A stretch of DNA of 64,000 nt from Geothrix sp. 21YS21S-4 (lineage in GTDB: Bacteria > Acidobacteriota > Holophagae > Holophagales > Holophagaceae), in contig NZ_CP132719.1 in assembly GCF_030845995.1 (NCBI RefSeq), forward strand, positions 62,001 to 126,000, given 5' to 3'. The notes beneath the pieces are model-generated. The model ran no database searches and was not told the DNA's origin. It saw only the letters and a list, made by a program, of their open reading frames with translations. Positions 10,420-25,222 of the stretch are shown here, in pieces. A program made the position numbers and the translations under genes. Positions within the stretch are counted from its first letter, which is position 1. Each line of letters starts with the position of its first letter.

Positions 10420-10496
10420 CGGAGCGTGGCGCAGCCTGGTAGCGCATCTGCTTTGGGAGCAGAGGGTCGCGAGTTCGAATCTCGCCGCTCCGACCA
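10420..10496 (+). tRNA. tRNA-Pro (anticodon TGG)
   Basis: A 77-nt cloverleaf including encoded CCA. Acceptor CGGAGCG pairs with CGCTCCG; the anticodon stem TCTGC/GCAGA encloses loop TTTGGGA with anticodon TGG at 10454-10456; the T-arm GCGAG-TTCGAAT-CTCGC is intact. Its T-arm reappears in inverted orientation 21 nt past the CCA end, and an AT-rich foreign tract begins about 180 nt further on, so this tRNA marks an insertion-prone site. Confidence 0.96.
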
Positions 10497-10516: not shown

Positions 10517-10668
10517 GAGGCGAGATTCGAACTCGCGAGTGGGATCGCGGAGACAGTGCGGGGCACTGCCGGGAGCGAGATCGGCGGTTTGTACAGTTAA
10601 GACACAGTTCAAACGCCCTCGCCCCGCCGACGAATGGGGTTCCATTTCGTCGACGGGTCGAATTTCGC
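10517..10668 (+). repeat. T-arm-bounded repeat, copy A
   Basis: Begins with an exact inverted copy (19 nt, about 10518-10536) of the adjacent tRNA-Pro T-arm. It continues with a 43-nt core at 10535-10577: a GCGAGTGGGATCGCGGAG block, a hairpin (10553-10559 with 10563-10569, loop GGG) and CGGGAGCG. The same core with identical spacing occurs at 24998-25040 on the other strand beside tRNA-Arg. A degenerate sense-strand T-arm (TCGAATTTCGC, 10658-10668) closes the element. It is not a tRNA: no acceptor stem or anticodon arm can be formed. Confidence 0.6.
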
Positions 10669-24951: not shown

Positions 24952-25054
24952 CAGGGACTCGAACGCGTCCGGCCTTGCCGTCCGCCGGTCCCGGTGCCGC
25001 TCCCGGCCCTCCCCCGGAGGGCCTCCGCGGTCCCACTCGCTGGTTCGAGTCCAG
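24952..25054 (-). repeat. T-arm-bounded repeat, copy B
   Basis: Read on the minus strand, it starts with an antisense T-arm (CTGG-ACTCGAA-CCAG, the inverse of the neighbouring tRNA-Arg T-arm). The 43-nt core at 25040-24998 follows: GCGAGTGGGACCGCGGAG, a hairpin with stem GCCCTCC/GGAGGGC and loop GGG, and CGGGAGCG. It ends with a sense T-arm (CGTTCGAGTCCCTG). The core aligns without gaps to 10535-10577; the hairpin stems differ in sequence but both pair. GGACTCGAA/TTCGAGTCC at the two ends are exact inverted repeats. Confidence 0.6.
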
Positions 25055-25072
25055 TCGAGTGGTGATGCAACC

Positions 25073-25136
25073 ATGGACTCGAACCGCCACCTGATGGCCT
25101 ACCGGGCCGCAGGTGTTTCTCGCCGATTCGAGTCCA
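25073..25136 (-). repeat. T-arm-bounded repeat, copy C (short form)
   Basis: Lies between copy B and tRNA-Arg. On the minus strand it runs from CTGGACTCGAATCG to CGGTTCGAGTCCAT, so its ends TGGACTCGAA/TTCGAGTCCA are perfect 10-nt inverted repeats. The middle holds a different hairpin (CCTGCGGCC/GGCCATCAGG). It lacks the 43-nt core of copies A and B but has the same kind of ends. Confidence 0.5.
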
Positions 25137-25145
25137 GCCGGGCGC

Positions 25146-25222
25146 TGGTGCGCCCAGCTGGACTCGAACCAGCGACCTACGGCTTAGAAGGCCGTTGCTC
25201 TATCCGCCTGAGCTATGGGCGC
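25146..25222 (-). tRNA. tRNA-Arg (anticodon TCT)
   Basis: A 77-nt cloverleaf on the minus strand including encoded CCA (25148-25146). Acceptor GCGCCCA/TGGGCGC pairs fully, the anticodon stem ACGGC/GCCGT encloses CTTCTAA with anticodon TCT, and the T-arm is GCTGG-TTCGAGT-CCAGC. Its T-arm recurs in both orientations in copies B and C just beyond its 3' end. Confidence 0.96.

Follow-up and report, generated by a model that had tools for sequence, protein, structure and literature searches.

The window analysed is a stretch of 64,000 nucleotides, positions 62001-126000 of the 3.08-Mb single-contig genome of Geothrix sp. 21YS21S-4. Three tRNA genes were found in it with ARAGORN. Downstream of two of them, tRNA-Pro(TGG) and tRNA-Arg(TCT), lie two related units containing the exact sequence GCGAGTGGGAYCGCGGAG, at the places where a sequence-only reading of the window had put them (copies A and B; Table 1). 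As that reading had also claimed, the hairpin stems pair (6 of 7 positions in copy A, 7 of 7 in copy B), and each antisense T-arm matches the T-arm of its own neighbouring tRNA. Copy B is intact (fold z -3.9) and is the second unit of an array, a unit with a different core standing between it and tRNA-Arg. In copy A the right side has decayed, with the outer stem lost and a fold z of -0.6. Neither window copy showed a terminator-like hairpin between its tRNA and the unit. The exact 18-mer taken alone is mildly unusual in this GC-rich window, where 12 of 100 shuffles gave two matches within 3 mismatches; what takes the family beyond chance is its tRNA context, the existence of relatives and a second block at a constant distance.

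Table 1. Features of the two window copies, their host tRNA genes and further loci of the same genome (window positions, or genome positions where prefixed G000:C1).
Feature	Position	Strand	Evidence or remark
tRNA-Pro(TGG), host gene of copy A	10420..10496	+	ARAGORN, Rfam
Copy A, inverted T-arm (GCGAGATTCGAACTCGC)	10520..10536	+	17/17 complement of tRNA-Pro T-arm
Copy A, complete family-1 unit	10520..10616 (G000:C1:72520-72616)	+	covariance model, 70.1 bits
Copy A, helix P2, TCGC 10545-10548 / GCGA 10575-10578	10545..10578	+	encloses GGA / GGGA internal loop and hairpin 1
Copy A, hairpin 1, ACAGTGC GGG GCACTGC	10553..10569	+	sequence; covariation
Copy A, decayed sense T-half GTTCAAACGC (tRNA version GTTCGAATCT)	10607..10616	+	comparison with own tRNA
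tRNA-Arg(TCT), host gene of copy B	25146..25222	-	ARAGORN, Rfam
First, shorter unit of Arg array, different core	25056..25145	-	sequence
Arg-array first unit, inverted T-arm	25138-25122	-	
Arg-array first unit, hairpin CACCTG..CAGGTG		-	
Arg-array first unit, sense T-half GGTTCGAGTCC	25085-25075	-	
Copy B, inverted T-arm (ACTGGACTCGAACCAGC)	25039..25055	-	16/17 to own tRNA-Arg
Copy B, complete family-1 unit	24955..25055 (G000:C1:86955-87055)	-	covariance model, 76.5 bits
Copy B, hairpin 1, GCCCTCC GGG GGAGGGC	25006..25022	-	sequence; covariation
Copy B, sense T-half (GTTCGAGTCC)	24955..24964	-	exact repeat of tRNA-Arg T-loop and 3' T-stem
Second-family copy, Gly (L242)	G000:C1:2012707-2012766		
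Second-family copy, Ser (L245)	G000:C1:2540094-2540153		
tRNA-Val(GAC) array (L166)	G000:C1:2372259-2372514		

The structure of the unit was written by hand from covarying blocks and was counted on 25 units and then on 96 model-aligned units (alignment A3). The shared core, given earlier as 43 nt, is real; the structured unit is longer, approximately 97-101 nt, and runs from the inverted T-arm to the sense T-half. It comprises, from the left, the inverted host T-arm, a single strand CGAG, a helix UGG/CCG, a tandem G-A motif, a helix YYGY/RYRR, a GGA/GGA internal loop, the variable hairpin 1, a second hairpin, and a sense copy of the T-loop and 3' T-stem. This sense copy extends in some units to CCA and is then followed by a repeated terminator.

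In A3, 92.4% of cells were paired, compared with 79.8% after shuffling. Double changes numbered 417 against 128 in the shuffles (0/500), 23 of 33 pairs had changed on both sides, and slid controls were 31-41% paired. These counts lean towards structure because A3 was fitted to the model; an alignment made without structure (A2) agrees, with 91.2% paired and 100 double changes against 37. The 4-bp helix was seen as TCGC/GCGA, CCGC/GCGG, TTGC/GCAA, TCGT/ACGA and TTTC/GAAA, all of which pair. At locus L120 canonical Watson-Crick pairs stand in place of both the tandem G-A motif and the GGA/GGA loop, making one long hairpin. The compensatory change across the 96 units is strong and upholds the earlier claim of a covarying hairpin.

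Fold z of the units ranged from -3.9 to -8.4, the decayed copy A excepted. The antisense strand folds approximately as well as the sense strand, and folding energies do not decide the strand. G-U outnumbered A-C by 12 to 1 in the 4-bp helix (first collection) and by 48:23 in the inner helices, read on the tRNA strand (A3). The tRNA strand is therefore favoured, and the excess suggests that this strand is transcribed.

Searches with a covariance model in this and related genomes gave further copies, nearly all 3' of tRNAs; the units are clearly neither limited to the window nor represented by non-pairing copies away from tRNA genes. The 18-mer search covered 46 same-genus genomes. With up to two mismatches, most of these contained the 18-mer, frequently as tandem copies, and some genomes of the same family had it too. 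A composite pattern matched 41 stretches among named GTDB genomes, all of them Geothrix, Holophagaceae or Acidobacteria bins. In a phylum sample of 247, covariance model R2 matched 18 of 18 Geothrix genomes, with 5-15 matches each, and two other Holophagaceae (G055, six matches; G050, one); the remaining approximately 225 Acidobacteriota of that sample gave no R2 match. A survey of the layout (an exact T-arm and an inverted copy 45-75 nt later) in a phylum sample of 297 returned 17 of 21 Geothrix genomes, G055 and three other Acidobacteriota. No Rfam family fits the Geothrix units at gathering or relaxed thresholds, and weak miRNA matches in the scan were discarded as chance.

Seventy of 78 collected units lay on the same strand as a tRNA gene and within 1 kb 3' of it, and most of the other eight were near contig ends. 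The host tRNAs of the 78 were Pro (three isoacceptors), Arg, Met, His, Asp and Thr. As a rule the first unit begins 60-75 nt past the tRNA end, with a terminator-like hairpin between the two at 32 of 41 loci, and loci hold 1-4 tandem copies spaced by approximately 120-200 nt.

The window's genome was examined as stretches around tRNAs. Further family-1 units were found with the covariance model at tRNA-Met and tRNA-Asp. The tRNAs Val(GAC), Ser(GCT) and Gly(CCC) are followed by cores that are related or different, and no other units rose above noise in this genome; its seven best model matches all lay 3' of tRNAs. When all 48 tRNA flanks were checked, the layout was present at Pro(TGG), Arg(TCT), Met, Asp, Val(GAC) and Ser(GCT), and more weakly at Gly(CCC). 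A core 16-mer with up to two mismatches retrieved both window copies and two unrelated sites only. Relaxation to 3 mismatches gave mostly chance matches, near the backward control, and was set aside.

A second core family, GGCAGRTAGG..RGCCGTGCC, has the same layout and stands at Ser and Gly tRNAs. Its pattern was found in seven copies in five Geothrix genomes, at Ser or Gly tRNAs only (L239-L241, L243 and L244, besides the two loci in Table 1). The tRNA-Val(GAC) array consists of two near-identical units, spaced by 174 nt, with exact 24-nt tRNA 3' ends and repeated terminators; its core has motifs in common with the second family and hairpin 1 in common with the first. A third core type (CGAGTGGC..CCGATGAGCG..) forms the last units behind tRNA-Met at L036 and L048, with a matching T-arm pair at the borders; in the L036 unit an altered T-loop base is compensated between both ends.

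The ends of the units follow the host tRNA. The left end matched the T-arm of its own tRNA at 14.8 of 17 positions and those of other tRNAs at 10.6 of 17, and the own tRNA was the best match at 39 of 41 first-unit loci; in the two exceptions a small hairpin is inserted between T-arm and core. Across Geothrix species the Pro(TGG) locus shows four T-stem states. At each of the 20 filled loci the inverted arm agrees with the state of its own tRNA, and at 19 of them with that state alone. The tRNA-Pro(TGG) gene (L107-L136) also varies between species in its acceptor stem (CGGAGCG or CGGGGCG), its changes compensating. Identity of the right T-half to the own tRNA was 0.96 in first and distal units alike. 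Mean identity of the left inverted T-arm was 0.87 in first units against 0.59 in distal units; because distal units often lose this arm, the outer stem is not essential everywhere. A>G accounted for 12 of 20 left-arm changes, an excess that could be transition bias. Conservation of the inverted T-arm as a hairpin of its own was dropped as an idea, since its 5' strand decays.

At the right end, the first 10 nt of the tRNA 3'-end copy are preserved at 9 or more positions in 64 of 68 units. Most family-1 units carry approximately 10 nt, and approximately nine carry 20-24 of 24 nt. The full 24 nt were present at L039, L114 (exact copies, 158-nt spacing), L136 and the tRNA-Val array of the window's genome (two exact copies).

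An empty site was available for the array at L136, which ends in an exact 24-nt tRNA 3' end. The sequence after this array aligned with the direct tRNA 3' flank of the unit-less loci L132 and L133 (scores 70 and 51), compared with shuffle maxima of 30 and 34 and a score of just 20 for the tRNA-proximal flank. An array of approximately 290 bp therefore lies exactly between two tRNA 3'-end copies, and at this one locus, followed in detail, direct repeats of the tRNA 3' end border it on both sides. Insertion and precise deletion would look identical at L136. Judged from the sequences, some insertion or duplication at a tRNA 3' end must have occurred.

The nearest unit in another genome stood at the same tRNA type for 54.6 of 92 units (permuted mean 15.1, maximum 31.5). 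Sixty-four units were nearer to the same tRNA type elsewhere and 5 nearer to another tRNA of their own genome. The cores thus group by tRNA type, so that inheritance was mainly vertical, and the nearest-unit counts indicate that movement between tRNAs was rare.

The earlier statement that no named family fits is not supported: the layout is that of the tRNA-linked repeats (TLRs) of E. coli, RtT RNA among them, though homology of the cores was not detected. PMC8144298 gives the class its name and describes these repeats (Egan and Landy 1978; Rudd 1999), with 22 copies at ten loci. Their criterion is a stretch of 18-19 bp at the 3' end of the unit that exactly repeats the end of the gene lying upstream. 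In the same paper, TLRs are described as transcribed and processed from the tRNA or rRNA transcript, those linked to rRNA lying between two terminators and being transcribed through read-through. A starvation role first claimed for the tyrT TLR was retracted, and the function of most TLRs is stated there as not known (PMC8144298). RtT is reported to carry a tandem G-A motif (PMC7657543).

The E. coli tyrV and proK loci, where Rfam finds RtT, have the same layout as the Geothrix units. The order at proK is tRNA, terminator, inverted T-arm, core, exact tRNA 3' end, terminator copy and truncated next unit. RtT at proK scored 14 for Pro against 12 for Tyr, and RtT at tyrV 14 for Tyr against 11 for Pro. 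Among the E. coli loci checked, 11 tRNA genes have an 18-19-nt copy of their own 3' end downstream. A left inverted own-T-arm above the shuffle maximum (14/17) was found in 4 of these 11 TLRs, at tyrV, proK, lysQ and lysV (K-12; L103, L106, and L255 and L257 for lysQ and lysV). No mention of this arm for these four was found in the portion of the TLR literature covered.

The Geothrix units are like TLRs in lying directly 3' of tRNA genes (in E. coli also rRNA genes), in their tandem arrangement (1-5 per locus in E. coli), in repeating the host tRNA 3' end at their own 3' end, in the two-terminator placement at some loci and in being structured. They differ in that most carry approximately 10 nt of the tRNA 3' end instead of 18-19 nt, and in that the inverted T-arm is nearly universal in first units. 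With RtT (Rfam RF00391; tyrT/V and proK loci) they share an outer stem from own tRNA T-arm sequences, three-base-loop hairpins, the tandem G-A motif and tandem copies, whereas helices and phylum are different. The Geothrix units gave no match to RF00391 at E up to 5, and the Geothrix covariance model gave none to the E. coli loci. They are termed TLR-like, and not full members, because the 18-19-nt rule holds in a minority of units and transcription of the Geothrix units is a prediction.

Placed at tRNA 3' ends, structured, matched to their own tRNA at both ends and found in tandem arrays with one empty site, the Geothrix units are probably TLR-like structured non-coding RNAs of approximately 95 nt that were inserted long ago at tRNA 3' ends and inherited with the tRNAs. 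The sequence-only reading had offered either a mobile element or an RNA from tRNA transcripts. The RNA alternative fits better because of the covariation, the G-U bias towards the tRNA strand, the clustering of units by tRNA type and the lack of an integrase adjacent to units in the window's genome; the mobile alternative came out weaker. RNA polymerase would read through the tRNA into the unit, at 32 of 41 loci past the terminator-like hairpin. The unit would fold with its ends paired and, by analogy with E. coli TLRs, might be excised by enzymes recognising tRNA 3' ends. Recombination between tRNA-3'-end repeats could lengthen and shorten the arrays. Two influences may jointly maintain the match of the inverted T-arm: selection acting on the outer stem, and sequence copied over from the neighbouring tRNA, through either quasi-palindrome template switching or conversion across the intervening hairpin. 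The closest functional precedent would be an sRNA that reports stable-RNA transcription, as proposed for RrB. An argument against a TLR-like RNA is that transcription would be curtailed by the terminator-like hairpins that precede most first units.

The same loci could be read as the work of a minimal mobile element made of DNA, with the T-loop of tRNA genes as its integration site. It would carry an attachment site and a folded strand that is recognised in trans by a recombinase or a hairpin transposase, would re-create the tRNA 3' end along with a terminator of its own, and would accumulate in tandem. The exact fit of the array between two 24-nt tRNA 3' ends and the downstream displacement of the ancestral terminator agree with this, as do arrays at nine tRNA types, the patchy presence at one locus and hairpin-1 types common to different tRNA types. 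Non-autonomous tRNA-targeting integrative elements are likewise flanked on either side by a direct repeat of the tRNA 3' end and show array accretion. We nevertheless regard such an element as unlikely. Deletion between the repeats would yield the same empty site, and ordinary elements have fixed ends, whereas the inverted ends of the units are specific to the host tRNA. The fold is conserved and RNA-like, inheritance was mainly vertical and the cores group by tRNA type. None of the six Phage_integrase matches in the window's genome adjoins a unit, for which reason an integrase-borne element was downgraded. Separately, integrase fragments at G000:C1:774250-774850, near tRNA-Arg(CCG), probably belong to a decayed genomic island.

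It is quite improbable that the units are passive by-products of replication, in which hairpin snap-back and slippage copied tRNA 3' ends that then drifted, with no RNA function. First units and the intervening hairpin do form long quasi-palindromes, and the match is best in the tRNA-adjacent unit and decays distally. The conserved core, however, is not derived from tRNA, compensatory change is strong over the 96 units, and non-canonical pairs have become canonical in L120. Covariation largely refutes this origin for the core; upkeep of the T-arm match may be owed to it. The two conserved GGA motifs opposite each other in the core are candidate sites for a CsrA-type protein, for which the units might act as a sponge, by analogy with the E. 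coli TLRs RrA/B/F. Such a role is reported for these three; in PMC8144298, RrB is described as binding CsrA and Hfq, and other E. coli TLRs are predicted not to bind CsrA. In the Geothrix units the GGAs lie in an internal loop and not in hairpin loops, and both are replaced by Watson-Crick pairs in L120, so that a sponge must be considered very unlikely indeed.

Known from E. coli since 1978, TLRs are for the most part without a settled function; the Geothrix units add an independent second set for comparison that is much larger (approximately 47 genomes, 5-15 units per genome sampled), with a covariation-backed structure and an inverted T-arm that tracks changes of the host tRNA. Given this structure, the T-arm tracking and the array at the tRNA 3' end, the origin, maintenance and function of TLR-like elements become testable. 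The unannotated RNA family, absent from Rfam, can enter genome annotation. A wider proposal, possible though doubtful, is a bacterial class of tRNA-tracking RNA elements with non-homologous cores, to which Geothrix families 1 and 2 and the E. coli TLRs would belong. Copying from the tRNA across a hairpin would rewrite their ends to fit the host, and they would survive either as parasites of tRNAs or by reporting the transcription of individual tRNAs.

Two kinds of insert were seen within the units. A REP-like repeat (approximately CTCCACCTGACGC..GGAGGCGGAGCC) is inserted in the hairpin 1 loop of several units at different tRNAs, in one orientation at L038, L048 and L095 and in the other at L046, L058, L101, L110 and L134. 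An optional small hairpin module (CCCCGGCC..GGCCGGGATCCAGCGT) stands between the inverted T-arm and the core at L039, L043, L068, L089, L097, L113, L118, L123 and L131.
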